A DNA stretch of 64,000 bases from Neobacillus vireti. Lineage in GTDB: Bacteria; Bacillota; Bacilli; Bacillales; Cytobacillaceae. The stretch is from contig NZ_LDNB01000017.1 of the NCBI RefSeq assembly GCF_001026695.1, positions 124,206 through 188,205 on the forward strand, read 5' to 3'. A program made the position numbers and the translations under genes. The stretch's first letter is position 1. Each line of letters starts with the position of its first letter. A model generated the notes under the pieces. It did no database searches, was not told the origin of the DNA, and saw nothing but the letters and a program-made list of their open reading frames with translations. Shown here in pieces: positions 4,763 through 28,577 of this stretch.

Positions 4763-4777
4763 AAAAGGAGGAATTTG

Positions 4778-5125: not shown

Positions 5126-5134
5126 TCAATTTAA

Positions 5135-8256: not shown

Positions 8257-8335
8257 CGAAAAAAATAATAGTAATAACACCAGTAGGTTGTCCGAAATAA
8301 TTATGGTACGGCAAAAAGCAAGGAGTGGCATAAGG

Positions 8336-8575
8336 ATGGAATTCTTTTTAAGTTGTTATGATAACGCATTTCCTTGTGAAGTGACCCTAGATGAAGAAAA
8401 TGGGAGGTATATGCTAAGGAATTCAGATTCAAGTGGAGAATATTTTAATAGTCCAACAGAGCTAGTGGATTGGATTAAGAATAATTGGACTGAGAGAGAA
8501 TTCACCAATCCCAAGGAATTTATAGAAATGATTGCCTTGTTGGAAAAGTATATTTGTAAATCTCCCAATTATTAA
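8336..8575 (+). CDS. small acidic protein of unknown function
   Basis: A 79-residue ORF beginning MEFFLSCYDNAFPCEVTLDEENGRYML and ending in LLEKYICKSPNY. It is acidic, with no signal peptide or membrane segment, and contains an aromatic-rich SPTELVDWIKNNWTE helix. The ATG at 8336 is 10 nt after AGGAG, better than upstream alternatives. It lies 79 nt after the oxidase on the same strand and so is probably the last gene of the first operon. I do not recognise a family. Confidence 0.6.
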   Translation: MEFFLSCYDNAFPCEVTLDEENGRYMLRNSDSSGEYFNSPTELVDWIKNNWTEREFTNPKEFIEMIALLEKYICKSPNY

Positions 8576-8607
8576 TAATAACTTAATGTTTTTGTAGGAC
8601 CCTGGTA

Positions 8608-8648
8608 AGGGCCTGACCCGGGTGATGTTTTTTAATAGGGCAGGCTCT
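8608..8648. repeat. dispersed palindrome, GCCTGACCC type; possible terminator
   Basis: Arms AGGGCCTGACCC (8608-8619) and GGGCAGGCTCT (8638-8648) form an imperfect stem around an AT-rich loop. The sequence resembles the element at 48386-48436. It is placed where the first operon should end and may act as its terminator. Confidence 0.45.
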
Positions 8649-9023
8649 TTTCTGTGGAGAAATTTATAGGAGTGATACTACCCTATCCCAAAAAGAAATA
8701 GGCCGGTAAACTAAAGCTTTAAGACACCATTAACAAATGGAATTATAAAAACCTCATTTCCAAAATTATCTATTATAATGGTATTGATTTAGCTGCTAGA
8801 AAAGAACGAACTATTTTCGGTTTTTAATTTTAAAACTTTCGAATTCTTTCAAAAAAACAAAAAATAAAAGGAAGTTTTACATATTTAGAGAATTATATAG
8901 TGTGAACGATTCGATTAAGAATCATATATAAAATTTGATTTAAAAAGTAATCAACTCTTTTTATTAAAAAAACACATTACAAAACAGTGCTTTCAATTCA
9001 ATCGAACTAAGGGGGAGCATCAA
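8649..9023. other. AT-rich gap between first and second units
   Basis: No coding potential stands out. There is a short inverted repeat GATTC-N6-GAATC near 8909 and a TTGATT-N8-AATCAA pair near 8936, both weak. A stretch near 8702-8728 resembles part of the gap at 19616-19641 (shared GGTAAAC-AAAGCT). A promoter for the sigma-54 activator gene should be here, but I cannot place it with confidence. Confidence 0.4.
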
Positions 9024-9059
9024 ATGACAATTAATATACCAATGAGGATATTTCCATGA
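9024..9059 (+). CDS. 11-residue leader peptide overlapping the sigma-54 activator gene
   Basis: ATG at 9024 follows a strong ribosome site (AAGGGGGAG, 9009-9017) and encodes MTINIPMRIFP before TGA at 9057-9059. The stop overlaps the ATG of the activator at 9056 in an ATGA arrangement, the classic layout for translational coupling. The activator has its own weaker site (TGAGGA) inside this mini-ORF. The peptide shows no rare-residue run. Whether it is translated is inferred only from the site strength and overlap. Confidence 0.5.
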   Translation: MTINIPMRIFP

Positions 9060-10453
9060 TTGAGAACACGAAGCTTGATAGTGTGAACAAATCCGATATT
9101 GAAATCATCTTATTGTCCATTTTTCAATCAAGTTACGATGGTATTTACGTTGCAGACAATGATGGTGTGGGAATTATGGTTAATTCCGCTTACTCAAGAA
9201 TTACTGGTGTAAATAGCCAAGAGTTACTGGGAAAGAACATGATGACTGTGGTAAAAGAAGGGCTAGTTTCAGAATCTGTTACTATAAAGGTTTTAGAGGA
9301 AAAAACAGCTCAAACGATTATTCAAACGGTTAGAGGGAAGGAATTATTAGTAACGGGCAATCCTGTATTTGACCATAACGGGAAAATTACCTATGTTGTA
9401 ACAAACGTAAGGGATATATCTGATTTAAATTATATGAAAACTGAGCTGCTGCACTCAAAGAGATTGACGGAACAGTATGTATGTGAAATTGAAGAATTAA
9501 AAAAGAGAGAATTAATCCATTTGCATCTTGATGGAATTATCGGTCAAAGCCAAGAAATTATGAAGGTTTTTCATCTTGCAAGGAAGGTAGCTAAGGTTGA
9601 TTCTACGGTCCTTATTTTAGGAGAGTCTGGAGTAGGGAAAGAAGTGATTGTTAATTATCTCCACCAAGAAAGTGATCGGGCGAATGCACCTTTGATTAAA
9701 GTGAATTGCGGCGCAATACCAAAACACTTGCTGGAATCTGAATTATTTGGCTATGAAAAAGGCGCATTTACAGGGGCTGACAGTCAGGGAAAGCCCGGAT
9801 TGTTTGAACAGGCGGACGGGGGGACTATATTTCTAGATGAAATTGGCGACATGCCAATGGATCTGCAAGTAAAATTATTAAGGGTTCTCCAAGAATTTGA
9901 AATCATGCGCGTTGGCGGAAGAAAAAGCTTTAAAATTGATGTAAGGGTCATTTCAGCGACAAATATGAATTTAGAGGAAATGGTAGATAAAAATGATTTT
10001 AGAAGGGATCTTTATTACCGACTGAATATAGTTCCTATAAAGGTCCCTCCCTTAAGAGAAAGGATAGCAGATATTGTTCCACTTGCCTTCTATTTTTTAA
10101 ATAAAAACAATAAAAAGAATAAGTTAAATAAAAGGTTTCATCATGAAATCATTCATTTTTTCGAAGAATATCGCTGGCCAGGGAATATTAGAGAGTTAGA
10201 AAATTTAATTGAAAGATTAGTAGTAACAACAGACAATGAGGAAATAAAGATGCAGGATTTACCAGCTAGCTTGTTACTAGGAAAGGCTCGTAAAAAGATA
10301 GAAACGGGGAAATTAAAGGAAATTATTGCGAATGTTGAGCGAAAGCTAATCAAAGAGCAAATGGAAAAATCAAAGACAACACGCCATGCTGCAAAAGAAT
10401 TAGGGATTAGCCAATCAGCCCTGGTAAAAAAAATGCAGAAATTAGGTTTTTGA
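9056..10453 (+). CDS. sigma-54-dependent activator, PAS-AAA-Fis (RocR/LevR-type enhancer-binding protein)
   Basis: A 465-residue enhancer-binding protein. A PAS sensor (about residues 17-130) with FQSSYDGIYVADNDGVG is followed by an AAA+ domain. The Walker A motif GESGVGKE starts near residue 189, the sigma-54 contact loop GAFTGA is at 236-241, and GGTIFLDEIGDM is the Walker B region. The C-terminus is a Fis-type helix-turn-helix (TRHAAKELGISQSALVKKMQ). There is no response-regulator receiver domain, so a small ligand sensed by PAS is expected. A consensus -24/-12 promoter lies 165 bp downstream, before the SDR/ligase/dehydratase genes, which it should activate. Confidence 0.92.
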   Translation: MIENTKLDSVNKSDIEIILLSIFQSSYDGIYVADNDGVGIMVNSAYSRITGVNSQELLGKNMMTVVKEGLVSESVTIKVLEEKTAQTIIQTVRGKELLVTGNPVFDHNGKITYVVTNVRDISDLNYMKTELLHSKRLTEQYVCEIEELKKRELIHLHLDGIIGQSQEIMKVFHLARKVAKVDSTVLILGESGVGKEVIVNYLHQESDRANAPLIKVNCGAIPKHLLESELFGYEKGAFTGADSQGKPGLFEQADGGTIFLDEIGDMPMDLQVKLLRVLQEFEIMRVGGRKSFKIDVRVISATNMNLEEMVDKNDFRRDLYYRLNIVPIKVPPLRERIADIVPLAFYFLNKNNKKNKLNKRFHHEIIHFFEEYRWPGNIRELENLIERLVVTTDNEEIKMQDLPASLLLGKARKKIETGKLKEIIANVERKLIKEQMEKSKTTRHAAKELGISQSALVKKMQKLGF

Positions 10454-10467
10454 TGAAAAAAGGAATC

Positions 10468-10497
10468 AAAAGTCAACGTTCATTCGTTGGCTTTTTT
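10468..10497 (+). terminator. intrinsic terminator of the activator gene
   Basis: Arms AAAAGTCAACG and CGTTGGCTTTT enclose a TTCATT loop, with one mismatched pair, and the descending arm runs into six T. It separates the activator transcript from the sigma-54 promoter downstream. Confidence 0.85.
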
Positions 10498-10593
10498 CAT
10501 TACACTCAATGGGAAAACGAATAATTATCAATATATTAACGGTGATAAAGGAAGAAATGTCTGTATTTTTGCAATATTATGTCGAATTATTAT

Positions 10594-10610
10594 ATATTTT
10601 CATAAAATAT
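10594..10610. promoter_or_regulatory. AT-rich palindrome upstream of the -24 element, candidate activator site
   Basis: ATATTTT-CAT-AAAATAT is a perfect 7-bp inverted repeat ending 7 bp before the -24 box. Enhancer sites usually lie farther upstream, so it may instead be a helper-protein site or chance in AT-rich DNA. Confidence 0.3.
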
Positions 10611-10617
10611 GAAAAAT

Positions 10618-10633
10618 TGGCACAATTATTGCA
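10618..10633 (+). promoter_or_regulatory. sigma-54 (SigL) -24/-12 promoter
   Basis: TGGCAC (10618-10623), five bases, TTGCA (10629-10633) matches the -24/-12 consensus with exact spacing. Transcription would start near 10643-10645. It stands between the sigma-54 activator gene and the catabolic genes beginning at 10688. Confidence 0.92.
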
Positions 10634-10687
10634 ATATATAATAAATAATACGACAACAAATAAAAGAGGATGAAGGTGATTGAGAGG

Positions 10688-11452
10688 ATGGATCTTCCAA
10701 CATTTGATTTAAAAGGCAAGGTTGCCCTCGTTACAGGAGGAAGTAAAGGGATTGGATTTAGCATGGCTCAGGCATTAGGGCATTATGGAGCAACGCTTGT
10801 TATTTCCAGCCGAGGGGCTGAAGAAGGGGAAAAGGCTGTTTCACAGTTAAAGGAAGAGGATATCGAAGCAGCCTATATTCCTTGTGATGTTACGAAAAAG
10901 GATCAGGTGGAACTGCTAGTCAGGCGAATTGTGGATCAATTCGGCTCGCTTGATATCTTAGTGAACAACGCAGGAATGAATATCCGGAAGCTGTTAGTTG
11001 AAGTAGAAGAAAGCGATTGGGATCAAGTATTAACGGTCAATTTAAAAGGACTTTTTCTAGTGGGACAAGCTTGTGCCAAACAAATGATTAAACAAAATTA
11101 TGGAAAAATCATCAACATCTCATCTATTTTAGGATCAATTGGAATGCCGTTCCAGACATCATATGCGGCTAGTAAAGGAGGCATTAACCAAGTAACAAAA
11201 GTCTGGGCTGATGAGTTAGCACCCTATAATATCACCGTTAATGCCATTGGGCCAGGATACATAAAAACACCAATGACCAATGATTGGTTATCTGATCCTG
11301 AACGGGCTGAGAAAATAATCAATGCCAGCATGATCAAAAGAATCGGAGAAACTTCGGATCTTGTGGGACCTGTGGTTTTCTTTGCTTCTGATACATCAGC
11401 CTATGTTACTGGCCAGATATTAAATGTTGATGGCGGATGTACTGCTCGTTAA
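10688..11452 (+). CDS. SDR-family oxidoreductase, first gene of the sigma-54 operon
   Basis: About 254 residues with TGGSKGIG as cofactor motif, NNAGMN, catalytic serine in INISSILG, and SYAASK. The end is NVDGGC. I choose the ATG at 10688 because AGGTGAT lies 7 nt upstream and MDLPTFDLKGKVALVTGG is a usual SDR beginning; an ATG at 10670 and GTG at 10676 are poorer. It is the first gene after the sigma-54 promoter. In this pathway it could interconvert a 4-oxo and a 4-hydroxy acid (for example succinate semialdehyde or levulinate), which is inference. Confidence 0.85.
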   Translation: MDLPTFDLKGKVALVTGGSKGIGFSMAQALGHYGATLVISSRGAEEGEKAVSQLKEEDIEAAYIPCDVTKKDQVELLVRRIVDQFGSLDILVNNAGMNIRKLLVEVEESDWDQVLTVNLKGLFLVGQACAKQMIKQNYGKIINISSILGSIGMPFQTSYAASKGGINQVTKVWADELAPYNITVNAIGPGYIKTPMTNDWLSDPERAEKIINASMIKRIGETSDLVGPVVFFASDTSAYVTGQILNVDGGCTAR

Positions 11453-11475
11453 AGGAATGATTAGGAGGTTAGTAA

Positions 11476-13065
11476 ATGAATATCACCAATGAAGTCCACT
11501 TTAATCGTAAAGTAAAAGTCTTTAAGAATCGGCCTAAAAACCTGCATGCGATGTTGAAAGAGACTGCCCAGAAATATTCATCACATGAGGTCCTTGTGAT
11601 GAATGGAAATCGCTTAACGTATAAAGAAATGCACGAAAAAGTGGAGCAGATTGCCGGTAATTTACAGAACTCGCTATGTGTAAAAAAGGGAGATCGTGTT
11701 GCACTTATATTAGGAAATAGTATTGAATTTTGTTTACTCGTTTTTGCTTGTGCTAAATTAGGGGCCATTGTGGTGCCATTAAATACTAGACTAAGAGAAG
11801 ATGAACTTTCTTTTATGATTCAACAATCTAACAGCCAGATCTTGGTTGTGGATGATGAATTTTTAGAGAAGGTCGAAAGCATGAGAGATCTTGATTCCAT
11901 CATAAATGTTCAATACTTTTTCTTAGTGGGGAATAGAACACCAAACCGAAAAGATTATTTGCCTTTTGAAATCTTAGAACAACCTTCTTCAGGTGCGGAT
12001 GTTCATGTAACGGAAGAGGATCCATTATTTATTATGTATACATCTGGAACAACTGGACTTCCAAAAGGTGCGATCGGCAGTCATTTTGGTGCGATTCACA
12101 GTGCAATCAATTATGAATACGTGTTAAAGACAAATGACAAAACAATAACCCTAATCGCTGTTCCTCTCTTTCATGTTACAGGCTTAATTGGCCAGCTTTT
12201 TCACATGGTTAAGGTAGGGGGGACACTCGTTATAATGAGGAGGTTTAAGACAGAAGAATACATCCGATTAACAGTGGAAGAAAATGTATCCTTTTTGTTT
12301 AATGTTCCAACCATCTACAATATGATGATGGCACATTCAGATTTCTCATTATATAGCTATTCAAAAGTAAATTGTATCGCCTACGGCGGTGCTCCGATGT
12401 CGTCGGAAACGATTTATAAATTGAAAAAGTATTTTCCGAATTCGTACTTGCATAATGCATATGGAGCCACTGAGACCTCCTCTCCTGCAACCATTATGCC
12501 GCAAATCTTTAATGAGTCAAAGGTAGATTCCGTTGGACTGCCTGTTCCTGTTGGCGAAATAAGAGTTGTAAATGATTTGGATGAACCATGTAAACCTGGT
12601 GAAGTGGGTGAACTATTAATTAAAGGGCCCATGATCGTTGAAGGCTATTGGAACAATGAGGCTGCCAACCAAACATCATTCCATAATGAATTTTGGCGCT
12701 CAGGCGACTTAGCAAAAATAGATGAAGATGGTTTTGTTTATATTGTCGATCGAAAAAAAGACTTAATTAATCGGGGCGGTGAAAAGATATTTTCCATTGA
12801 GGTCGAGAATGTTCTTTATAATCATCCTAAAGTATATGAAGTGGCTGTCGTAGGAGTTCCAGATCCTCTCTTTGGGGAAATTGTCAAAGCGGTGATTGTC
12901 CCAGAGTCTGATGAAACCATTGAGAGCCAAGAAATAAAAGATTTTGTTGCAGAAAGATTAGCAAATTTTAAAGTTCCGAAACTAGTAGAATTTGTATCCG
13001 AACTGCCTCGTAATGCGGCGGGGAAAATTATAAAGAATGTGCTGAAGAATTTACAGCATCACTAA
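11476..13065 (+). CDS. acyl-CoA synthetase (AMP-forming), probable hydroxy acid-CoA ligase
   Basis: A 529-residue ANL-superfamily adenylating enzyme. The phosphate loop YTSGTTGLPKGA is near residue 187, AYGATETSSPA is the A5 motif, FWRSGDLAKIDEDGFVYIVDRKKDLI is the hinge region, and RNAAGKIIKN carries the catalytic lysine of the C-terminal lid. It would activate the organic acid entering this pathway to its CoA thioester. It follows the SDR by 23 nt with TAGGAGG before the ATG. Context (dehydratase, 3-hydroxybutyryl-CoA dehydrogenase, thiolase) points to a C4-C5 acid. Confidence 0.9.
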   Translation: MNITNEVHFNRKVKVFKNRPKNLHAMLKETAQKYSSHEVLVMNGNRLTYKEMHEKVEQIAGNLQNSLCVKKGDRVALILGNSIEFCLLVFACAKLGAIVVPLNTRLREDELSFMIQQSNSQILVVDDEFLEKVESMRDLDSIINVQYFFLVGNRTPNRKDYLPFEILEQPSSGADVHVTEEDPLFIMYTSGTTGLPKGAIGSHFGAIHSAINYEYVLKTNDKTITLIAVPLFHVTGLIGQLFHMVKVGGTLVIMRRFKTEEYIRLTVEENVSFLFNVPTIYNMMMAHSDFSLYSYSKVNCIAYGGAPMSSETIYKLKKYFPNSYLHNAYGATETSSPATIMPQIFNESKVDSVGLPVPVGEIRVVNDLDEPCKPGEVGELLIKGPMIVEGYWNNEAANQTSFHNEFWRSGDLAKIDEDGFVYIVDRKKDLINRGGEKIFSIEVENVLYNHPKVYEVAVVGVPDPLFGEIVKAVIVPESDETIESQEIKDFVAERLANFKVPKLVEFVSELPRNAAGKIIKNVLKNLQHH

Positions 13066-13095
13066 TTTTTTTTACAAAAGAGAGGAAGAGATGCA

Positions 13096-14424
13096 ATGTC
13101 TACAATTGTGAAAAAGGCTTGGGGCTATCGATATGCGGTTTTAATCGTTCTTTGGTTAGTCTATATTATTAATTATTTTGACCGGATGGCGGTCTTAACC
13201 TTTCTGCCATTCATACAGAAGGATTTAAACTTAACCCCTGTGGAAGTAGGGCAGCTAGCATCTGTGTTTTTCTTTGCCTATGCTGCTGCGCAAATTAGCG
13301 CTGGTTTCCTGGCTGATAAATTTGGAGCCAAAAGAGTTATGTATGTAGCCATTACAGTCTTTACATTCGTTACCGCTATAACAGGAATGGTAAAAACCTT
13401 CGGCCAGTTTTTGGCCCTCCGAATTGGATTAGGGCTTGGAGAAGGACACCATTTTGCCCCGGCCATTCGGGCAATAAATAACTGGTTCCCTCATAAAGAA
13501 AGAGGAAGGGCTGTTTCGTTTTTCGCAACTTCATGGGCCGTTGCCCCGGCAATCGTGCCGGTTATCGTTACTAGTATCTCTGTTTATTTTTTCAGTGGTG
13601 ATTGGAGACCGGTCTTCTATGTGCTTGCTATACCGGGAGTAATCGGAATTTTCTTACTATGGCGTTTTATATCAGATTCTCCAAAAGAAATGATTGCGAA
13701 AGGGAAATTGAGTAAGGATCAGGATATTGATGGGGATGATGTTGCTTCTGTTAGAACGATTTCGAAAGAAGAGAAAAGAAAAAGCTACGGTATTTTCCTC
13801 AAAGATGTTAATTTTTATGTTTTTACCTTGTGTCTATTTTGTCAATTAGCTGTTTATTGGGGAACAACGACCTGGTTAACTTCCTTTTTGGTTACCCAGC
13901 ATGGGTTAAATCTTAAGGAAATGGGCTTGTTCGCATCTGCACCATATATCGTTGCTTTCTTCGCTATGATGCTTGGGGGATGGCTGATGGATAACGTTCT
14001 TCATCGAATGAAGCCTGTTGCTTTGATTGGGTATATTTGCAGTATTCCTGTACTGTGGATGCTTGGTGCAGTAGAAAAAGGTAATACGGGTCTATTACTT
14101 ACACTGCTATTGCTCGTTGGTTTCTTTGTTAACTTAAACTTTGGCTCGATTTATGCTTATCTGCCTAAATTATATCCAAAGGAAGTTGTTGGAAGTGCAA
14201 CAGGATTAGCGAATGGAATTGGTCAAATGGGTGCATTTGTTTCTCCTCTGGTTGCAGGGTATTTAGTAAAAGTAGGGGCAAATGGAGCACAAGATTTTAG
14301 CAGAGTTTTTATCTTCTTTGCCATAGTTTCGGCAGTAGCGGCAGTTTGTTCTTTCATTTTGAAGGAAAAGAAGGTAACGAATGCCAGTATAAAATTGATT
14401 AAAACTGAGAAATCGATTAGTTAG
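13096..14424 (+). CDS. MFS transporter, anion:cation symporter (ACS) type
   Basis: A 442-residue protein with about 12 membrane helices. The N-terminal half has WLVYIINYFDRMAV and the loop motif GFLADKFGAKRVM; RIGLGLGEGHHFAPAIRAINNWF is typical of the ACS family, which carries organic anions such as hexuronates, tartrate and phthalate. GERGRA-like KERGRAVSFF follows. It lies 30 nt after the ligase gene and is the likely importer of the acid used by this operon. Substrate is inferred from context only. Confidence 0.87.
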   Translation: MSTIVKKAWGYRYAVLIVLWLVYIINYFDRMAVLTFLPFIQKDLNLTPVEVGQLASVFFFAYAAAQISAGFLADKFGAKRVMYVAITVFTFVTAITGMVKTFGQFLALRIGLGLGEGHHFAPAIRAINNWFPHKERGRAVSFFATSWAVAPAIVPVIVTSISVYFFSGDWRPVFYVLAIPGVIGIFLLWRFISDSPKEMIAKGKLSKDQDIDGDDVASVRTISKEEKRKSYGIFLKDVNFYVFTLCLFCQLAVYWGTTTWLTSFLVTQHGLNLKEMGLFASAPYIVAFFAMMLGGWLMDNVLHRMKPVALIGYICSIPVLWMLGAVEKGNTGLLLTLLLLVGFFVNLNFGSIYAYLPKLYPKEVVGSATGLANGIGQMGAFVSPLVAGYLVKVGANGAQDFSRVFIFFAIVSAVAAVCSFILKEKKVTNASIKLIKTEKSIS

Positions 14425-14463
14425 GTTTTTCTGAGAACCATATTAAAAAAGGTGGGATATAGC

Positions 14464-15645
14464 ATGCAGGTTTTGCCATCCATTTTTGAAACGATTAATG
14501 AAAAAGAGGCCATTCAATTTTTACAATCACTTATACAAGTGAACAGTGTGAATCAACCGGGAAATGAAAAAAGAGTAGCTGAGGTGATACAGACATATTT
14601 AACACCATCCAATCTTCACGTTGCATTAGATGATCTTGGTAACAATCGCGCTAATCTATTTGTTACCTATCCATATGTTGAGACAGATGAAAAATATTTA
14701 ATTTACAGCGGTCATTTAGATACCGTTCCAACGGGGAAGGTCGAATGGGAACATGATCCTTTTTCCGGGAAGGTAGTAGGTAATAAAATATATGGGCGAG
14801 GAACGACCGACATGAAAAGTGGTGTTGCTGCAATGGTCCTGGCTCTGAAATATTTAGAACGTGCCGGAGTGAAACTAAAGGGAACGGTACAGTTTGTCGG
14901 GACTGCAGGTGAAGAGGTCGATGGATACGGTGCAAAAATAGTCGTGGAAAAAGGGCAAATAGACAAGGCAACCGCATTGGTTGTTTCGGAACCTAGCGAA
15001 AACCAACTTTTCACTGCACATAAGGGCTGTTTATGGCTAGAAATCACTACCAATGGAAAAACAGCGCATGGTTCAATGCCAGACCAGGGTATTAATGCTA
15101 TTTTAACGATGAATGAGTTTATAAATACTCTCCAATCCTATCAATTTGATTACACGCCGCACCCATTATTAGGTCATCCAACGATTAATATTGGGACAAT
15201 TGATGGTGGTGTAAAAACAAATGTTGTACCGGATCAATGTAAATTGACTTTAGACATACGAACAATTCCTGGACAGGATAAAGATAGGATTTTAAAAGAT
15301 ATCGAGAATATGATCCAAGAAATCTCAATCCGGTCACAATCAACCTGCCAAATAAAGGTCATAAATAGTATGGAATCCGTAGGCACCAATGAATCAGATG
15401 ATTTTGTGATACTTGCTGTTAATACTGCTAAGAACCATTTAAACATAGAGCTAACTCCTTCAGGTGTTAATTATTATACGGATGCATCTGTTTATTGCCC
15501 TCATTTGAAAATACCGACGATTATATTTGGCCCGGGAAATCCAAAACTTGCACACCAGCCAGACGAATATGTAGAAATTGATAAATTCATCGAATCTATC
15601 CGTTATTTTATGGCCCTCGCGATTGATTATTTGGGTGAAAGCTAG
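14464..15645 (+). CDS. M20-family metallohydrolase (ArgE/DapE/CPG2-like)
   Basis: About 393 residues. The dinuclear zinc site motifs are present: YSGHLDTVPTG, GRGTTDMKSG and GTAGEEVDGYG, plus HKGCLWLEI and the late HQPDE. A dimerisation domain lies between. Start ATG at 14464 is 8 nt from GGTGG; the GTG at 14452 lies inside that site. M20 enzymes cleave N-acyl-amino acids, succinyl-diaminopimelate and similar amides. In this operon it could release the pathway acid from an amide-linked precursor. That role is inferred only from its position between carrier and dehydratase. Confidence 0.85.
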   Translation: MQVLPSIFETINEKEAIQFLQSLIQVNSVNQPGNEKRVAEVIQTYLTPSNLHVALDDLGNNRANLFVTYPYVETDEKYLIYSGHLDTVPTGKVEWEHDPFSGKVVGNKIYGRGTTDMKSGVAAMVLALKYLERAGVKLKGTVQFVGTAGEEVDGYGAKIVVEKGQIDKATALVVSEPSENQLFTAHKGCLWLEITTNGKTAHGSMPDQGINAILTMNEFINTLQSYQFDYTPHPLLGHPTINIGTIDGGVKTNVVPDQCKLTLDIRTIPGQDKDRILKDIENMIQEISIRSQSTCQIKVINSMESVGTNESDDFVILAVNTAKNHLNIELTPSGVNYYTDASVYCPHLKIPTIIFGPGNPKLAHQPDEYVEIDKFIESIRYFMALAIDYLGES

Positions 15646-15776
15646 AATTTGTTCGATAGGTAAATAGCTGCAGTGTGTCTAATTGATTAATAAACTTTTT
15701 AAATTCATTAATGGAATGTTAGATGAGATTACAACTCATAAAACAATGCGTCTAAAAAAAGAGGAGGAAAATTACT

Positions 15777-17234
15777 ATGATGACACAAGAAGAATATATT
15801 GAAAGTCTTCGCAAGCAAAAGAAGGAAGTTTATTTTATGGGAGAAAGGGTTGAAAATGTAGTCGATCATCCGGCGATGAGACCGCATATTAATGCAGCAT
15901 CTGTTACCTATAAATTGGGTACAGAAGAGCAATATGAAGAACTTGGCAGTGCAACCTCACATTTGACAGGAGAAAAAATAAACCGTTGGACACATATTCC
16001 GCAAAACCAAGAAGATCTCGTTAAGAAAGCGATGATGCTTCGGGTTGCGGGACAAATAACAGGAACCTGTTTTCAACGATGTGTTGGAATGGATGGCTTG
16101 ATTACCCTATATTCAACCACATGGGAGATGGACCGGGATCTTGGTACGAATTATCATGAAAGATTTAAACGATTTTTAATTGATACACAAAATAATGACT
16201 TTATGACAGATGGAGCCATGACAGATCCAAAAGGAGACCGTTCGAAAAGACCGTCAGAACAACAAGACCCTGATCAGTATGTCAGGGTGGTAGAAGAAAG
16301 AGAAGATGGGATTGTTGTTCGCGGTGCAAAAATGCATCAAACCGGTGCCATCAATTCACATCAAATTTTAGTTATGCCGGGTACTGCGATGACGCCAAAC
16401 GATGCAGATTACGCCATTTCCTTCGCTGTTCCAGCCGATGAAGCAGGGATTGTCTATGTTTTTGGACGGCAAGTTAATGACAGCCGTAAATGGGAAGGAA
16501 AAATAGATCAAGGAAATGCCAAATATGGAGTGGTCGGCGGAGAAGCGCTGATTATTTTTGAAGATGTATTTGTTCCATGGGAACGTGTATTTATGTATAA
16601 AGAAACCAAGTATACCGGAAAACTTGTTGATCGCTTCGCATCCTACCATCGTCAAAACTATGGTGCTTGTAAGGCAGGAAATCTTGATGTTCTGATTGGG
16701 GCAACAGCGTCACTTGCAGACATGCATGGAATCTCAAAAGCCAGTCATGTGAAGGAGAAACTTTCTGAAATGGCTCACTTAGTTGAAACTATGTATAGTG
16801 GAGCCCTCGCCTGTTCATTTAATTGTTCTACATCTGGATGTGGTACTGCTTTTGTTGATCCCGTGTTGGCAAATACATCTAAACTAAATACTGCTCGTTA
16901 TTATCCGGAAGTAACAAAGCTTTCCCAAGATTTAGCAGGTGGGTTTGTAGCCACACTGCCTTCTGAAAAAGAGTTAGATAACCCAAGAATTGCTCCTTAT
17001 ATTTATAAATACTATCGGACAGGTGAAAATGTAGATCCAATTCAAAGAATTAAAATGGGACGTCTTATTGAAAATATGACCGGCTCGACTCCAATTATTG
17101 AGTGTATGCATGGTGCGGGATCACCGCAGGCACAAAAAGTGGTCATCCAAAGATCAATTAATTGGGGTGAAAAAATTAAATATGCTTCGGAAATCGTCAA
17201 AGATTCAGAGGAACCAAGTGAAGTAACTAGCTAA
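15777..17234 (+). CDS. 4-hydroxybutyryl-CoA dehydratase / vinylacetyl-CoA isomerase family protein (AbfD-like)
   Basis: A 485-residue member of the HpaB superfamily that would usually be labelled 4-hydroxyphenylacetate 3-monooxygenase. It instead matches the Clostridium AbfD pattern as I recall it: TCFQRCVGMD gives Cys98 and Cys102, and YHRQNYGACKAG gives His291 and Cys298. These are the four ligands of the AbfD 4Fe-4S cluster (Cys99, Cys103, His292, Cys299), each offset by one. GAMTDPKGDR, GAKMHQTGAINSH and MHGAGSPQAQ also agree. It would convert 4-hydroxybutyryl-CoA to crotonyl-CoA using FAD and the cluster. GAGGAGG precedes the ATG. Flanking ligase, 3-hydroxybutyryl-CoA dehydrogenase and thiolase genes support the role. 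Confidence 0.88.
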   Translation: MMTQEEYIESLRKQKKEVYFMGERVENVVDHPAMRPHINAASVTYKLGTEEQYEELGSATSHLTGEKINRWTHIPQNQEDLVKKAMMLRVAGQITGTCFQRCVGMDGLITLYSTTWEMDRDLGTNYHERFKRFLIDTQNNDFMTDGAMTDPKGDRSKRPSEQQDPDQYVRVVEEREDGIVVRGAKMHQTGAINSHQILVMPGTAMTPNDADYAISFAVPADEAGIVYVFGRQVNDSRKWEGKIDQGNAKYGVVGGEALIIFEDVFVPWERVFMYKETKYTGKLVDRFASYHRQNYGACKAGNLDVLIGATASLADMHGISKASHVKEKLSEMAHLVETMYSGALACSFNCSTSGCGTAFVDPVLANTSKLNTARYYPEVTKLSQDLAGGFVATLPSEKELDNPRIAPYIYKYYRTGENVDPIQRIKMGRLIENMTGSTPIIECMHGAGSPQAQKVVIQRSINWGEKIKYASEIVKDSEEPSEVTS

Positions 17235-17264
17235 TCTACAAGTAACAATAAATCCTTTGCTGCC

Positions 17265-17294
17265 CGAGCAGATGCCCATTTGCAGCTGCTCGGC
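17265..17294 (+). terminator. hairpin between dehydratase and dehydrogenase genes
   Basis: CCGAGCAG-A-TGC and GCA-G-CTGCTCGG form a 12-nt stem with one mismatch and a six-base loop, followed by CTTCATTTTAT. The stem is strong but the T tract is broken, so partial termination or 3'-end protection of the upstream message is likely. Confidence 0.6.
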
Positions 17295-17354
17295 TTCATT
17301 TTATATAAGCTTTTTTACATAGAATGAAAAAATAGGAAACGGGAGGAAATAAAC

Positions 17355-18194
17355 ATGTCAAAGGTTCTCGTTATCGGAACAGGAACAATGGGAGCAGGAA
17401 TCGCTCAAGTAATTGCACACCATAATCACGAGGTCACATTGTTCGATCAATCCAAAGACCAGCTTGATAGGGGAATAGACAGCATTGAAAAGCAGCTTAA
17501 TTCTTTAGAAGAAAAGGGAAAAATAGATGCACAACAAAAAGAAACCACTTTAAAACATCTAGAACCAACCTCTACCTTTCCACACGCTTGTTTTGATCTC
17601 ATCATCGAGGCTGTACCTGAAAAGAAGGAGATTAAAAGTGCCGTTTTTAAACAAATGGATAAAATCAGTGATGAAAAAACTATATTAGCTACAAATACTT
17701 CATCGATTAGTATAAGCGAAATTTCGTCGTATATAGAAAAACGAGATCAAGTAATAGGACTGCACTTTTTTAATCCGCCAACCATAATGAAACTAGTAGA
17801 AGTCATTCGCGGGCACCGGACAGATGATAGGATTGTAACGAGAAGTAAAGAGTTTATACATTCAATTGGAAAAGTACCGATTGAAGTGAATGAAGCCCCT
17901 GGCTTTGTTGTAAACCGAATGTTAGTCCCAATGATAAATGAAGCTGTATTTCTATTGATGGAAGGAGTCGCATCGGCTGAAGAAATTGATCAATCAATGA
18001 AATTAGGTGCAAGTCATCCGATCGGTCCACTAGCTTTAGCCGATTTAATCGGTTTAGATGTGTGCTTACAGGTGATGGATGTTTTATACGATGAGTTTTC
18101 AGATAGTAAATACCGCCCAGCTCCACTCTTACGTAAAATGGTTCGGAGCGGCTACTTAGGACGAAAAACCAAGAAGGGGTTTTATTCCTATTAA
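17355..18194 (+). CDS. 3-hydroxybutyryl-CoA dehydrogenase (3-hydroxyacyl-CoA dehydrogenase family)
   Basis: A 279-residue NAD-dependent dehydrogenase, the usual single-function length. The Rossmann motif [18 protein letters not shown] is at the N-terminus, ATNTSSISI and [17 protein letters not shown] contain the catalytic histidine region, and [18 protein letters not shown] begins the C-terminal domain. It would oxidise (S)-3-hydroxybutyryl-CoA to acetoacetyl-CoA, the step before thiolysis. It has its own GGGAGG site and follows the hairpin at 17265. It is the fifth enzyme of the sigma-54-controlled set. Confidence 0.93.
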
Positions 18195-18298
18195 TTAATA
18201 AAAAATGGTCAGAAAAGGTTTGGGATTATGGTAATTGCCGAGAAATCCAAGTAGCAAAAGGGATGACAGTACGATTTAAATAAGAAGGGATGAAGAAA

Positions 18299-19477
18299 AT
18301 GAAAGATATCTATATTTTAGAAGGAGCCAGGACACCGTTTGGTTCATTTGGAGGAGTGTTAAAAGATGTGGGCGCCACAGATCTCGGGGTGACTGCAAGT
18401 AAAGAGGCGATCAGACGAAGTGGTATAGAACCAGACCATATTGACTTCTCTGTTGTAGGGAACGTTATCCATACTGCCCGTAATGCTTCCTATCTAAGCA
18501 GGCATATTGCCTTAAAATCAGGACTTCCAATTACAAGCCCTTCCTTAACGGTTAACCGTTTGTGCGGCTCAGGCTTGCAAGCAGTAATTTCTGCTGCCCA
18601 GTCAATCATATTAGGGGAGGGTGAAGCTGGTTTAGCTTGTGGAACTGAAAATATGAGCCAGTCTCCTTATGTAATGTATGGGAGCCGCTTTGGAACAGGC
18701 TTAAAGAGTCCGCAATTAGATGATATGTTGTGGGCTACGCTCACGGATGAATATAGTGGAATTGGTATGGGGATTACAGCTGAAAATATAGCTAAGAAAT
18801 ATAATATTTCACGGGAAGATCAAGATGAATATGCATTACAAAGTCAACAAAGGGCATCTGCTGCGAGAAACAGTGGTGTATTCCAAAAAGAAATTGTTCC
18901 AGTTGAAATAAAGAATAGAAAAGGAAGTTTCTTGATAACAGAAGATGAGCATATTCGGGAGAGTACTAATATAGAAGCGTTAAGAAAACTAAAACCTGCA
19001 TTTGAGACGGAAGGAACGGTTACCTCAGGGAATGCCAGTGGAATTAATGATGGGGCTGCATCCCTTGTGGTTGCTAGTGACTCGTTTATTTCTAAAAATA
19101 CTAAGACACCGCTTGCCCGTATTGTTTCCTGGAGCATTGCAGGTGTCGAACCTACATTAATGGGAATCGGCCCCATTCCTGCTATTCAAAAACTTTTAAA
19201 TAAGGAAAATTTAACGATTCATGATATTGATTTGTTGGAAGTAAATGAAGCTTTTGCTTCACAGTATTTATCTGTTGAGAGGGAACTGGGTTTAAACCGG
19301 GAAAAGACAAATGTTCACGGGGGAGCAATCGCTCTTGGACACCCTGTTGGAGCAAGCGGGGCGAGGATTTTATATTCACTTATACTAGAATTAAAGAGAA
19401 TAAACGGACGTTTCGGGATTGCTTCTCTCTGTATTGGGGGAGGGCAAGGAATTGCTATACTAGTTGAGGCATGTTAA
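18299..19477 (+). CDS. acetyl-CoA acetyltransferase (thiolase)
   Basis: About 392 residues with all thiolase landmarks: nucleophile Cys89 in NRLCGSGLQAV, NEAFASQYLSVERELGL, GGAIALGHPVGASGAR and the C-terminal CIGGGQG. It would cleave acetoacetyl-CoA to two acetyl-CoA, ending the pathway. The ATG at 18299 is 9 nt after GAAGGG; the ATG at 18290 touches that site. A 93-nt open frame without a start (18191-18283) fills the gap upstream. A bidirectional terminator follows at 19659-19694. Confidence 0.93.
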   Translation: MKDIYILEGARTPFGSFGGVLKDVGATDLGVTASKEAIRRSGIEPDHIDFSVVGNVIHTARNASYLSRHIALKSGLPITSPSLTVNRLCGSGLQAVISAAQSIILGEGEAGLACGTENMSQSPYVMYGSRFGTGLKSPQLDDMLWATLTDEYSGIGMGITAENIAKKYNISREDQDEYALQSQQRASAARNSGVFQKEIVPVEIKNRKGSFLITEDEHIRESTNIEALRKLKPAFETEGTVTSGNASGINDGAASLVVASDSFISKNTKTPLARIVSWSIAGVEPTLMGIGPIPAIQKLLNKENLTIHDIDLLEVNEAFASQYLSVERELGLNREKTNVHGGAIALGHPVGASGARILYSLILELKRINGRFGIASLCIGGGQGIAILVEAC

Positions 19478-19602
19478 TTTTTACAAGCTAATTGGTTAAT
19501 GTGCCAGTTTTTCATGGGCGTAATTCTATAAAAGGATTGCGTCTATTTCTATTTTTATATTAAAAATTACTTTTAAAAATTATTGGTTAGAATCCGGACA
19601 TT

Positions 19603-19615
19603 GGGGACAGTCCCC
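19603..19615. repeat. dispersed palindrome GGGGAC-A-GTCCCC
   Basis: A perfect 13-nt palindrome in the gap between two convergent genes. It matches the GGGACA/TGTCCC core of the element at 58070-58134. The following GGTAAAC-AAAGCT stretch resembles 8704-8717. Confidence 0.5.
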
Positions 19616-19658
19616 CGGTAAACCAAAGCTAACGCACCAGTTGACTGACCACATTCGT

Positions 19659-19694
19659 AAAAAACTCGGTACTCAATGGGGTGCCAAGTTTTTT
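19659..19694. terminator. bidirectional terminator between thiolase and cardiolipin synthase
   Basis: AAAAAACTCGG (19659-19669) and CCAAGTTTTTT (19684-19694) form an 11-nt stem with one G-T pair and T runs on both strands. It serves the two convergent genes. Confidence 0.75.
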
Positions 19695-21144
19695 ACAATA
19701 TAGGCGATAAAAGACGTGAGATGGCCTCTTTAAACTTGATAGACATGGAGCGCTCTTTATATTTTCGCATTGTCAGTTGAGAGCTATCATGACAATCTTG
19801 CAGGAACAAATCACTAAGCTGTTTAGCGACTTTTTCATCGTATATTACGGCATTCACCTCAAAATTTAATTGAAAGCTGCGTTTGTCGATGTTGGCAGTC
19901 CCAACAGAAGCCACTTCCTGATCTACTACAATCGTTTTTGCGTGGATGAATCCCTTCTCATACAAGTAAATTTTTGCGCCGTAATCGACCAGTTCACCAG
20001 TGTATGCCAAGGTTGCCCAATAAACTATGGGAAAATCCCCTTTACTAGGTATCATAATTCGAACATCAACACCTGAAAGCAAGGCAATTTTGCAGGCATC
20101 CATAAAGCTGGTATCAGGAACAAAATACGGGGATTGGATGTATACGGTTTTTTTAGCCGCCATAATCAGTTTAATATACATATTTTTGATATGTTCCGTT
20201 TCAGAGTTTGGTCCGCTTGCAATGATTTGAACAGGACTATTCCCTTCTGGTTTTTCCATTGGTACAGCATAGGGCTCAAGGTTCAATTTATTCTTGGCAG
20301 CATAATTCCAGTCTAAAAGAAACCTTCCTTGTAATTGATTCACCGATTCACCTTTAATTCTTAGATGGGTATCACGCCAGTAGCCGAATTTTTTATCCAA
20401 GCCCAAGTACTCATTTCCGATATTAAAGCCGCCGATAAAAGCAATCTTTCGGTCGATGATACAAACTTTTCGGTGATTCCGGTTATTTATGCGAAAATTG
20501 ATCAATTTAAGAAACGAGGGAAAAAAGGCCTCAACTTCACCGCCATAATGAATGAGTTCTTTAAAAAAACCAGGAGAAATCCTTTTAGAACCAATTTCGT
20601 CATAGAGAACCCGGACCTTGACCCCTTCTTTAGCTTTTTTTGTCAGTTCATCGCGCAGTCTTTTTCCAAGGGAATCGCGCTGTATGATGTAATATTGCAG
20701 ATGAATCTCTTCTTGCGCATTTTTAATATCTTCAAACAAAGCATGAAATTTTTTATGACCATCACTGAAAATCTCAATTTCATTGTACATCGACAGTAAT
20801 GCATTGGAGGAGTTCAAGTTCATCAAGAGCAAATCAGAATGTTTTGTTAGCAGTTTATAGTCGAAAAAACGCCTGTTTTGCAGCTGTTGAATTTGTTCTT
20901 TTACAGTTGATTGAAGATAGTTTCTTTCTTCAGCTGATAAACGGTAAAAATTCCTCTGTTTTAATTGCCTTCCCAGGAACAGATAAACTAAAAATCCCAC
21001 GATTGGAATAAAGAAAAGGACCATCAGCCAGGCCCATGTAGAACCAATGTCTCTTCGTTCTATAAACACAACCACACCCGCAAGCACAATATTCCCGATG
21101 AGAACAATGGTTACAAGCAATGTCGTTACATTTGTCACATCCAT
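19693..21144 (-). CDS. cls: cardiolipin synthase (two HKD phospholipase D domains)
   Basis: About 483 residues, the normal length. An N-terminal pair of membrane helices (TTLLVTIVLIGNIVLAGVVVF; WAWLMVLFFIPIVGFLVYLFLG) is followed by two phospholipase D domains with HRKVCIIDRKIAFIGG and HAKTIVVDQEVASVGTANID. It condenses two phosphatidylglycerol molecules to cardiolipin at the membrane. The start is the ATG at 21144, 10 nt from GAGGAG; a longer frame to 21255 lacks a site and would precede the membrane anchor with a basic tail. It is convergent with the thiolase gene and unrelated to the catabolic units. Confidence 0.93.
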   Translation of the reverse strand: MDVTNVTTLLVTIVLIGNIVLAGVVVFIERRDIGSTWAWLMVLFFIPIVGFLVYLFLGRQLKQRNFYRLSAEERNYLQSTVKEQIQQLQNRRFFDYKLLTKHSDLLLMNLNSSNALLSMYNEIEIFSDGHKKFHALFEDIKNAQEEIHLQYYIIQRDSLGKRLRDELTKKAKEGVKVRVLYDEIGSKRISPGFFKELIHYGGEVEAFFPSFLKLINFRINNRNHRKVCIIDRKIAFIGGFNIGNEYLGLDKKFGYWRDTHLRIKGESVNQLQGRFLLDWNYAAKNKLNLEPYAVPMEKPEGNSPVQIIASGPNSETEHIKNMYIKLIMAAKKTVYIQSPYFVPDTSFMDACKIALLSGVDVRIMIPSKGDFPIVYWATLAYTGELVDYGAKIYLYEKGFIHAKTIVVDQEVASVGTANIDKRSFQLNFEVNAVIYDEKVAKQLSDLFLQDCHDSSQLTMRKYKERSMSIKFKEAISRLLSPIL

Positions 21145-21365
21145 ACGAAAAAAACTCCTCTTTGTTACAAGTCTCCTAGTAAATCTTACCTGAATTGGGT
21201 GGACTTTAAAAGGAATATGACGGTTACTAGATTGTCGCGTTGTTGAAAAATTCACTTAAGGCACTACTTTAAATCAACCTTGCAGGCATAATTTTAGAAT
21301 GGCTGCTTTCCTCAATATATAATGGAAAAGTAGGGAATGATAGTTTATCGAAGGAGTTGTTTGTA

Positions 21366-22091
21366 GTGGGACAATCATTAAAAGGAAAAGTTGCGTTTGT
21401 AACTGGTGCTGGAAGAGGAATTGGCAAGGCGATTGCGATTGCATTAGCAAATGAAGGGATAAATGTTGGTTTGCTTGCAAGAACAGAAGCTGCTTTAAGG
21501 GAAGTGGCAAGTGAAGTTGAAGGTTTGGGAGTTAAAGTAGCATATGCTGCAGTTGATGTTTCATCCTTAGAAGAAGTAAATCAAGCCATTGAAAAATTGA
21601 CAAACCAGTTGGGCACGGCGGATATTCTAATAAATAATGCCGGAATTGGAAAATTTGCAACTCTTTTAGAAATGGATCCAGAGGAATGGAAGAAAATCAT
21701 TGATGTCAATATAATGGGTACATATTATGTAACTCGTGCTGTACTTCCACAGTTAATCGAAAAAAATGGCGGTGATATTATTAATATTTCATCGACTAAT
21801 GGGTTGAATGGTGCTGCTACTTCTAGTGCATATAGCGCATCTAAATTTGGAGTAATTGGTCTAACTGAATCATTAGCACAAGAAGTCCGGAGAAACAATA
21901 TCCGAGTGACGGGCCTAACTCCTAGCACGGTAGCTACAGAACTGGCTGTCAAAACCAATTTAATCGCAGAAAACGATGATGAAAAATATATGCAACCTGA
22001 AGATATTGCTGAATTTATCGTTTCCCAATTAAAATTACATCCGCGAGTTTATATCAAAACCGCAAGCCTTTTAGCAACCAATCCATTCTAA
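21366..22091 (+). CDS. SDR-family 3-ketoacyl-(ACP) reductase-like protein
   Basis: About 241 residues: [12 protein letters not shown] cofactor motif, NNAGIG, catalytic serine in NISSTNG and YSASK. The C-terminal part ([23 protein letters not shown]) departs from the usual GG ending and resembles Bacillus short-chain reductases of the YuxG/FabG-like group. The GTG at 21366 is 9 nt after AAGGAG. It stands alone with a terminator right behind it. Confidence 0.85.
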
Positions 22092-22415: not shown

Positions 22416-23021
22416 ATGACAAATGTATTGCAGAGTAAAGGCCAAGATCGAAAAGTAGAAATATTAGATGCTGCGCTAACGCTGTTTGTAAAAAATGGCT
22501 TTAATAGAACCTCAATTCAAGATATTGCAGATGCAGCAGGAATCACGAAAGGGGGGTTATATCATTATCTAAAAAGTAAAGAGGAAATTCTTTTTTTGCT
22601 CCACGAACGATTTATATCTGAAGGTTATTCGAAGTTGAAGTTAATCGAAGAAGAGTCACTTCCAACCGAAGAGAAGCTAGTAAAATTATTAAAAACACAC
22701 TTAGAAATTATTAAGGATTATAAGGATGATATCACCATCTTTTATAAAGAGTACAATAATTTATCGCCCGAGAATTATAAGATTGTTATGAATAAAAGAG
22801 ATGACTATGAAAGCATTTTCATTAACGTTTTAGAAGAAGGAAGAATAAATGGCGTTTTTAATATAGAAAATAGCCGAATTTCTAGTTTTTTTATCTTAGG
22901 TGCTAGTAACTTTATGTATCATTGGTATAACCCAAATGGTGAAAAGCCAATGGATGAACTAGCAAGAATTTATTTGAACATCATCAAAAACGGAATTCTA
23001 AATGAAAAAGATAAAGCTTAA
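22416..23021 (+). CDS. TetR/AcrR-family transcriptional regulator
   Basis: A 201-residue repressor. The N-terminal helix-turn-helix reads ILDAALTLFVKNGFNRTSIQDIADAAGITKGGLYHYLKSKEEIL, standard for TetR. The C-terminal ligand domain resembles the fatty-acid/acyl-CoA-responsive FadR/KstR group, but this is weak. It is the first gene after the operator-bearing promoter, so it likely represses itself and the catabolic genes and is released by a pathway CoA ester. The next gene begins 16 nt after its stop. Confidence 0.9.
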   Translation: MTNVLQSKGQDRKVEILDAALTLFVKNGFNRTSIQDIADAAGITKGGLYHYLKSKEEILFLLHERFISEGYSKLKLIEEESLPTEEKLVKLLKTHLEIIKDYKDDITIFYKEYNNLSPENYKIVMNKRDDYESIFINVLEEGRINGVFNIENSRISSFFILGASNFMYHWYNPNGEKPMDELARIYLNIIKNGILNEKDKA

Positions 23022-23037
23022 AAAGGGGGAAGAAGGG

Positions 23038-24000
23038 TTGAGCCACATTCCGAATGAGGAGTTAATGTCCCTTTATCAAACAATGGTCAAGATTCGCGGG
23101 TTTGAAGAAAGAGTTTCTAGTTTGTTCTCAGATGGGCTGATACCAGGATTTTTGCACTTGTACATAGGTCAAGAGGCAGTAGCATCTGGAATTTGTGAAA
23201 ATCTATCAAAGGAAGATTATATTACGAGTACACATAGAGGACATGGACATTGTATTGCAAAAGGTGCAGATGTAAAAAAAATGATGGCAGAGTTATTTGG
23301 AAAAGAAACCGGCTATTGTAAAGGAAAAGGCGGTTCGATGCATGTCGTCGATGTTGAAATAGGGATTCTTGGAGCAAATGGGATTGTTGGAGCAGGTATG
23401 CCGATTGCAGTTGGGGCTGGGATTACAGCCAAAACGAATAATAAAGGTCAGGTCGTGATTCCTTTCTTCGGTGAAGGAGCTACAGGAATTGGCTATTTTC
23501 ACGAAGCGGTTAACATGGCCTCAGTTCTTAAACTACCGATTATCTTTGTTTGTGAAAGTAATCAGTATGCAGAATTTACCCCTCGGGAAACTCATTTACC
23601 AGTAAAAACCATTGTAGAAAGAGGAGGAGCCTATGGCATTGAGAGCTTTCTAGTAAATGGAAATGATGTGGTAGAAGTCTATCAAACAATGAAACCAATC
23701 ATAAATCGAGTAAGAAATGGAGAAGGACCTTTCCTAGTTGAATGTGTAACCAATCGCTGGAGCGGCCATTTTGAAGGCGATCCACAACGTTATCGACCAG
23801 AAGGTGAAATTGACGAATGGAAGAAAAATGATCCTATTAAAAATTTCCGTTCCATCCTAACTTCTGAATATCATATCCAGGAAAGTTCACTCGTTTCGAT
23901 TGAAGAAGCTGTCAAACTAGAACTCGATGAAGCAGAAAAGTTTTCGCGCGAAAGCCCTTTTCCGAATGAATTGTCTACATTAGAAGATGTCTACGCTTAA
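23038..24000 (+). CDS. 2-oxoacid/acetoin dehydrogenase E1 alpha subunit
   Basis: About 320 residues of a thiamine diphosphate-dependent E1 alpha chain. GDGATGIG-type motif appears as GEGATGIGYFHEAVNMASVLKLP, with STHRGHGHCIAKG and CKGKGGSMHV before it, the pattern seen in acetoin dehydrogenase AcoA. The TTG at 23038 is 8 nt after AAGGGGG; an ATG at 23002 would overlap tetR. It pairs with the beta chain 14 nt downstream. The reaction would be oxidative cleavage or decarboxylation of a 2-oxoacid or acyloin with transfer to lipoamide. Acetoin itself is only one candidate substrate. Confidence 0.87.
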   Translation: MSHIPNEELMSLYQTMVKIRGFEERVSSLFSDGLIPGFLHLYIGQEAVASGICENLSKEDYITSTHRGHGHCIAKGADVKKMMAELFGKETGYCKGKGGSMHVVDVEIGILGANGIVGAGMPIAVGAGITAKTNNKGQVVIPFFGEGATGIGYFHEAVNMASVLKLPIIFVCESNQYAEFTPRETHLPVKTIVERGGAYGIESFLVNGNDVVEVYQTMKPIINRVRNGEGPFLVECVTNRWSGHFEGDPQRYRPEGEIDEWKKNDPIKNFRSILTSEYHIQESSLVSIEEAVKLELDEAEKFSRESPFPNELSTLEDVYA

Positions 24001-24014
24001 TAGGAGGTGGAATC

Positions 24015-25013: not shown

Positions 25014-25030
25014 TAAAGGAGGAAGGGATT

Positions 25031-26047: not shown

Positions 26048-26058
26048 GAGAAATGAAA

Positions 26059-27753: not shown

Positions 27754-27769
27754 AAAGGAAGAGATATGT

Positions 27770-28555: not shown

Positions 28556-28577
28556 TTGTCTAAGGAGGGAGAGGACA

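Follow-up and report, generated by a model that had tools for sequence, protein, structure and literature searches.

A stretch of 64,000 nucleotides of the Neobacillus vireti genome (assembly GCF_001026695.1, contig NZ_LDNB01000017.1, positions 124,206 to 188,205 of the forward strand), called the window below, was analyzed around an open reading frame (ORF) for a protein of the 4-hydroxybutyryl-coenzyme A (CoA) dehydratase family, an iron-sulfur/flavin adenine dinucleotide (FAD) family. The ORF lies in a run of seven genes, all on the plus strand, for a short-chain dehydrogenase/reductase (SDR), an adenosine monophosphate (AMP)-forming acyl-CoA ligase, a major facilitator superfamily (MFS) transporter, an M20 metallohydrolase, the dehydratase, a dehydrogenase, and a thiolase, with intergenic gaps of 23, 30, 27, 131, 120, and 95 bases (Table 1). 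The antisense of the dehydratase ORF, in the same register, contained stops throughout. The family, the cluster ligands, the predicted fold, the gene order, and a promoter match were established, and we consider the protein probably a radical dehydratase of this family with FAD and a [4Fe-4S] cluster, encoded in a sigma-54-controlled catabolic operon of Neobacillus.

Table 1. Positions of the features discussed in the text (window numbering, except narG)
Feature	Position	Strand	Evidence or detail
Sigma-54-dependent activator (PAS, AAA+ sigma-54 interaction domain, helix-turn-helix)	9056..10453	+	Pfam Sigma54_activat (E 6.7e-73), PAS, HTH_50
Sigma-54 (-24/-12) promoter match, TGGCACAATTATTGCA	10618..10633	+	36 bases before SDR start
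SDR, first gene of the run	10670..11452	+	Pfam adh_short_C2 (E 1.3e-65)
AMP-forming acyl-CoA ligase	11476..13065	+	Pfam AMP-binding (E 2.2e-87)
MFS transporter	13096..14424	+	Pfam MFS_1 (E 1.6e-74)
M20 metallohydrolase (ArgE/DapE type)	14452..15645	+	NCBIfam PRK08588, TIGR01910 above cut-off
Dehydratase, 4-hydroxybutyryl-CoA dehydratase (Fe-S/FAD) family	15777..17234	+	485 aa, ATG start
Cys98 codon (AbfD Cys99), cluster ligand	16068..16070	+	Alignment
Cys102 codon (AbfD Cys103), cluster ligand	16080..16082	+	Alignment
His291 codon (AbfD His292), cluster ligand	16647..16649	+	Alignment
Gly296-Ala297, two-residue cluster loop between Tyr295 and Cys298	16662..16667	+	Alignment, homologue lists
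Cys298 codon (AbfD Cys299), cluster ligand	16668..16670	+	Alignment
Residues 434-441, 8-residue loop before Glu442	17076..17099	+	12 residues in AbfD, 6VJR
Glu442 codon (AbfD Glu455)	17100..17102	+	Alignment
3-Hydroxybutyryl-CoA dehydrogenase	17355..18194	+	Pfam 3HCDH_N (E 1.1e-61); best NCBIfam PRK05808, 397 bits vs 408 cut-off
Acetyl-CoA acyltransferase (thiolase), BktB-like	18290..19477	+	Pfam Thiolase_N (E 1.3e-89); TIGR01930 above cut-off
Terminator-like hairpin after thiolase gene	19514..19546	+	Pattern scan
narG, respiratory nitrate reductase	contig C9:205582-209241		About 17 kb past the window's right end

A phmmer search of the PDB with the window protein gave the Nitrosopumilus maritimus enzyme 6VJR as the top match (E 4.6e-143), followed by AbfD of Clostridium aminobutyricum (1U8V, E 7.9e-143), while HpaB (2YYG) was a much weaker match (E 2.9e-40). 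The aligned window protein was 49.1% identical to 6VJR, which was the single archaeal anchor in these comparisons, 48.5% to AbfD, and 25.6% to HpaB 2YYG. The alignment and tree proposed earlier were run, and the cysteines were found at the AbfD positions; the window protein grouped with AbfD and 6VJR, outside the HpaB branch (59 versus 4 rows, 100/100 support). Its predicted fold was nearest to 1U8V and 6VJR, with a root-mean-square deviation (rmsd) of 1.5 over 475 residues to AbfD 1U8V, compared with about 3.1 to HpaB. The data confirmed that the likeness to AbfD-type dehydratases is no chance resemblance.

The sequence-only reading had placed all four ligands of 4-hydroxybutyryl-CoA dehydratase in this protein, and the motifs and residue numbers that it quoted (Cys98, Cys102, His291, and Cys298) were correct. 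They align with AbfD Cys99, Cys103, His292, and Cys299, which we take to be the cluster ligands of that enzyme, and the constant offset of one from the AbfD numbering held at all four. In the 63-row alignment, Gln100, His187, Thr189, Glu256, Tyr295, Lys299, and Glu442 of the window protein fell on AbfD Gln101, His188, Thr190, Glu257, Tyr296, Lys300, and Glu455, presumably active-site residues, whose numbering agrees with the alignment. The whole active-site pattern was present in 56 of the 63 rows. The seven deviating rows were four HpaB sequences (0 ligands), P0101 (an alignment row in which Lys is replaced by Arg), and L034 and L019 (L-numbers denote related loci compared with the window); L034 was without an equivalent of Glu455 and L019 without those of Glu455 and Glu257, and P0101, L034, and L019 kept all four ligands. 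The four ligands were also present in 120/120 homologues of the window protein (the best 120 of 7999 scored candidates). The window protein is predicted to carry FAD and a [4Fe-4S] cluster. L019 and L034 form a deeper branch (40-44% identity) with Ser or Ala at the AbfD Glu455 position, and this branch possibly catalyzes a different reaction.

These residues also bear on whether the protein acts mainly as a vinylacetyl-CoA isomerase, with no dehydration in vivo. The family has this second activity: AbfD is also a vinylacetyl-CoA isomerase, and the molecule name of 6VJR includes it. However, all four ligands and the residues matching AbfD Tyr296 and Glu455 are conserved, and none of the seven genes offers an evident source of vinylacetyl-CoA; this role is highly improbable.

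The automatic labels point to an HpaB-type flavin monooxygenase, and strong matches to Pfam HpaB_N and HpaB were indeed found in the window protein; HpaB (2YYG and kin) has the overall fold and the Pfam domains in common with it. However, the NCBIfam HpaB equivalogs scored below their cut-offs (TIGR02309, HpaB-1, 186.2 versus 480.2 bits; TIGR02310, 102.3 versus 885.2 bits), and no flavin reductase was found among the seven genes by Pfam or NCBIfam matches. As the sequence-only reading had stated of true 4-hydroxyphenylacetate monooxygenases, HpaB 2YYG had 0/4 ligands, and so had two paralogues from the same genome and one genus paralogue. The ligands, model cut-offs, tree, and fold led us to reject the monooxygenase identity, which is very remote indeed. 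The ligands, the other active-site residues, the tree, the fold, and the operon support membership of the window protein in the Fe-S/FAD dehydratase family. The suspicion that an HpaB label hides a radical dehydratase was right about the family, and such a label does exist: NCBI lists the Neobacillus mesonae homologue (87%) as a '4-hydroxyphenylacetate 3-hydroxylase family protein'.

The protein was also compared with its relatives by two loop features, both defined in this analysis, namely the cluster loop (HRxxY-x-C or HRxxY-xx-C) and the length of the loop before the Glu455 equivalent. Three homologue lists were used, each the best 120 of about 8000 scored candidates and hence near relatives of its own query: homologues of the window protein (list 1, 7999 scored candidates), one-residue-loop homologues (list 2), and further 12-residue-loop homologues (list 3). 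The cluster loop had two residues in AbfD, the window protein, and 120/120 of list 1, but one residue in 6VJR, the Bradyrhizobium and Sphingomonas plasmid homologues, and 120/120 of list 2. The pre-Glu455 loop had 8 residues in the window protein and 120/120 of list 1, but 12 residues in AbfD, 6VJR, 118/120 of list 2, and 120/120 of list 3; the other two proteins of list 2 showed no Glu motif by the pattern used. AbfD has the four ligands, the seven other active-site residues, the two-residue cluster loop, and the fold in common with the window protein and differs in the pre-Glu455 loop, whereas the N. maritimus enzyme differs in both loops. A tree built after excision of both loops, and without the four HpaB rows, L019, and L034, still separated 45 short-loop rows from 12 long-loop ones at a single branch with 100/100 support. 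Therefore, the window enzyme belongs to a coherent short-loop subfamily that contains neither solved structure, and lies outside the long-loop subfamily, which holds both solved enzymes. 6VJR grouped with the Bradyrhizobium and Sphingomonas plasmid homologues (100/100), a class from which the window protein is set apart by its two cluster-loop residues. Judged by the two loops, the sequences examined fall into three classes: the window type, the AbfD type, and the N. maritimus/Bradyrhizobium type. We know of no assayed member of the short-loop subfamily, and no such assay was found in the literature searched, with most subscription papers outside the search.

The -24/-12 element ahead of the SDR gene was the sole perfect sigma-54 match within the window, against an expectation of 0.12 from base composition alone. 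With two mismatches allowed, there were 95 matches in the window versus 66.9 expected from shuffles, so that only the perfect site carries weight. The genome encodes RpoN, and thus the element, an activator gene, and the sigma factor of a sigma-54 operon were all found. The activator, whose best NCBIfam match was PrdR (below cut-off), is likely the regulator of the seven-gene run. A scan of 11 related loci gave a perfect element in three, namely L016 and L020, where it precedes the SDR homologue, and L008, where it precedes the dehydratase; eight loci gave none. Within window positions 8000-22000 no RNA element reached its Rfam gathering score, and in the 131 bases between the M20 and dehydratase genes the sigma-70 pattern scan gave no plus-strand site. 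The run would be a sigma-54-controlled catabolic operon with an active promoter at this element. A survey of sigma-54 connects this factor, chiefly in Clostridia, with the COG2368 group, to which 4-hydroxybutyryl-CoA dehydratase belongs (PMC12316311).

In the proposed pathway, the MFS transporter would import the hydroxy acid, and the AMP-forming ligase would activate 4-hydroxybutyrate or a close gamma-hydroxy acid. The dehydratase would then form crotonyl-CoA by way of a short-lived ketyl radical while the cluster binds the hydroxyl group, a mechanism that we assume carries over from AbfD. A crotonase encoded elsewhere (nine crotonase-family matches were found in the genome) would hydrate crotonyl-CoA, and the dehydrogenase and thiolase of the operon would yield two molecules of acetyl-CoA. 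In the Paenibacillus loci L009 and L010, homologues of the dehydratase, SDR, dehydrogenase, ligase, thiolase, and crotonase were found together; these gene sets support the conversion of a gamma-hydroxy acid into acetyl-CoA, for which we infer the direction and the substrate. Activation by an AbfT-type CoA-transferase was considered and rejected: the genome's three PF13336 matches, which lie in frames of 225-230 aa, pass the Pfam cut-off but are weak, at 31-33 bits compared with 251 bits for the transferase beside a Fusobacterium dehydratase, and therefore the ligase is the likelier activator.

The gene context was compared between 12 short-loop and 13 long-loop loci, taken from 24 stretches chosen by similarity rank to the window protein in a search of 398 Bacillota genomes and from one Fusobacterium record. 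Neighbours within 3.5 kb were labelled by BLAST, with the Fusobacterium transferase as the AbfT-like reference; the p values (Fisher) are for eight features, uncorrected, and ignore genome relatedness. Two short-loop loci are from one genome (G303), L071 has two short-loop genes, two long-loop loci were classed by eye, and some stretches end at contig ends. An SDR neighbour was found at 7/12 short-loop versus 0/13 long-loop loci (p 0.0016), and a thiolase at 8/12 versus 2/13 (p 0.015). The AbfT-like CoA-transferase showed the opposite distribution (1/12 versus 7/13, p 0.030), and the window locus has a CoA ligase and an SDR instead. The counts were 6/12 versus 2/13 for the dehydrogenase (p 0.097), 3/12 versus 2/13 for a crotonase (p 0.64), and 0/12 versus 4/13 (p 0.096) and 0/12 versus 1/13 (p 1) for two further Fusobacterium reference neighbours. 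When 77 and 71 neighbours were tallied by Pfam family (first 25 families), thiolase, SDR, and CoA-transferase differed in the same direction.

The SDR and CoA-transferase counts, together with the shorter loop before the Glu455 equivalent, would fit the same chemistry on another substrate, in which the short-loop subfamily dehydrates a secondary-alcohol gamma-hydroxyacyl-CoA such as 4-hydroxyvaleryl-CoA. A 4-oxo acid, for instance levulinate, would be converted by the SDR into the 4-hydroxy acid, and propionyl-CoA and acetyl-CoA would be released by the BktB-like thiolase, whose best NCBIfam match is BktB. However, the SDR may work at some other step, the score for BktB (513 bits) stays under the 565 cut-off, and the loci, besides being picked by similarity rank, are phylogenetically dependent. 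No paper joining 4-hydroxybutyryl-CoA dehydratase and 4-hydroxyvaler- was found in a search mostly without subscription papers. We regard this other substrate as rather unlikely.

Several observations weigh against the preferred reading, a 4-hydroxybutyryl-CoA dehydratase in a sigma-54-controlled operon. The seven-gene run contains no crotonase gene, and the SDR has no obvious step in the use of 4-hydroxybutyrate. A sigma-54 activator was a neighbour at 4/12 short-loop versus 8/13 long-loop loci (p 0.24) and is thus not specific to the subfamily. A stable hairpin (-30 kcal/mol, no Rfam match) in the gap between the dehydratase and dehydrogenase genes (17235-17354) means that the run may not be one even transcript; it could attenuate the dehydrogenase and thiolase genes. 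Within 10 kb flanks, L006 and L016 had no dehydrogenase or thiolase homologue, and L020 had just a 39% dehydrogenase homologue and no thiolase. Because AbfD and 6VJR have four more residues in the pre-Glu455 loop, and the neighbours differ from those of these two solved enzymes, 4-hydroxybutyryl-CoA, named as the substrate in the sequence-only reading, is likely yet unproven.

AbfD is oxygen-sensitive, while the entry title of 6VJR describes that enzyme as oxygen tolerant. We put forward the hypothesis that cluster-loop length may be linked to oxygen tolerance across the family. According to a review (PMC10173188), enzymes of the 3-hydroxypropionate/4-hydroxybutyrate cycle are oxygen-tolerant, and the dehydratase of the dicarboxylate/4-hydroxybutyrate cycle is inactivated by oxygen. 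The host had been called apparently aerobic, which four strong COX1-family matches in its genome favour; however, the COX1 family also includes nitric oxide reductases, which were not told apart from oxidases here, and the genome encodes one full-length NarG (1748 bits), so that the host can probably respire nitrate. No copper nitrite reductase above cut-off and no class III ribonucleotide reductase match was found in the genome. A Neobacillus that is facultatively anaerobic and reduces nitrate has been described (PMC13199352). The AbfD-like cluster loop and NarG suggest use of the enzyme at low oxygen, which is plausible. A broader proposal joins both loops: the short-loop subfamily would be a separate radical dehydratase for other gamma-hydroxyacyl-CoAs, and cluster-loop length would mark, and perhaps set, oxygen tolerance, so that the Neobacillus enzyme would be oxygen-sensitive and used under nitrate or low oxygen. 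We consider this combined proposal rather unlikely.

In the genus Neobacillus, an orthologue (at least 87%) was found in 7/61 genomes, including the host genome itself, and one genome had two copies; therefore, the gene is patchy and accessory in this genus. At the family level, a match at E 1e-90 was found in 8/193 genomes, of which the eighth has only a paralogue at 40%. This patchiness, and neighbours that look catabolic (a CoA ligase and a likely importer), count against a part in an autotrophic 4-hydroxybutyrate carbon-fixation cycle, although the enzyme is listed as a step of both archaeal 4-hydroxybutyrate cycles (passage of PMC9802188); the other cycle enzymes were not searched for. 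Such a part is extremely improbable. The sequence-only reading had taken a radical dehydratase of this kind to be known mostly from anaerobes and the archaeal 3-hydroxypropionate/4-hydroxybutyrate cycle, a rarity that was not fully supported: the family was found in 58/398 sampled Bacillota genomes and also in Bradyrhizobium, Sphingomonas plasmids, and Rokubacteria, and NCBI and JGI already name many homologues, Bradyrhizobium included, 4-hydroxybutyryl-CoA dehydratase. In a Bacillus cereus strain the dehydratase name came from genome annotation, with no assay in the passages concerned (PMC10665291), and therefore the enzyme name is not new in a Bacillus.

Neither the family, nor its chemistry, nor its occurrence in aerobes is new. 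No description of the short-loop subfamily as a unit, of its SDR/thiolase context, or of the loop difference between classes was found in the literature searched. A different enzyme, BbuA, eliminates trimethylamine from gamma-butyrobetainyl-CoA; the same paper gives about 10% identity to 4-hydroxybutyryl-CoA dehydratase, and its authors envisioned that an acyl-CoA undergoes C4 elimination by way of a cryptic flavin radical, which they compared with that enzyme (PMC8364193). The present assignment puts right a 'hydroxylase' label that is misleading for what is likely a radical enzyme. The three loop classes make testable both the substrate of the short-loop class and the basis of oxygen tolerance versus inactivation among 4-hydroxybutyryl-CoA dehydratases, two questions relevant to engineered carbon-fixation and 4-hydroxybutyrate routes.

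The surroundings of the dehydratase gene varied among related loci. In L004, L005, and L007 the dehydratase-dehydrogenase-thiolase set was kept and the upstream genes differed, with 2-oxoacid dehydrogenase genes in L004 and L007 and with hydantoinase A and B, a cyclase-family protein, and another ligase in L005. M20 homologues were found near the dehydratase in L008 and L016. L007 and L016 are on one Neobacillus niacini contig, with two dehydratase copies about 36 kb apart and different upstream sets; one set has homologues of the window activator, SDR, ligase, MFS, and M20 genes, interspersed with additional hydrolase genes. In L031, a Bradyrhizobium elkanii conjugative plasmid, a short-cluster-loop dehydratase, labelled 4-hydroxyphenylacetate 3-hydroxylase N-terminal domain-containing protein, is near an SDR, an AMP-binding protein, and an N-acyl homoserine lactonase family protein.

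Upstream of the operon, window positions 335-6814 encode a 2-oxoacid:ferredoxin oxidoreductase pair, an amino-acid-dehydrogenase-like (ELFV) protein, an SDR, and a sodium:solute symporter. Homologues of the oxidoreductase pair, the ELFV protein, and the SDR, with an amino acid permease, lie beside the dehydratase in L018 (574-9905), and this likeness may hint at an amino-acid-derived substrate. A second catabolic stretch at 22416-38741 encodes a TetR-like regulator, 2-oxoacid dehydrogenase E1a/E1b/E2/E3 (the regulator, E1a, E1b, and E2 were named by reading ORFs), a crotonase, an AMP ligase, an acyl-CoA dehydrogenase, a branched-chain-type ABC transporter, a carboxymuconolactone decarboxylase family protein, and SDRs. 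It is followed by hydantoinase A/B at 39099-43154.
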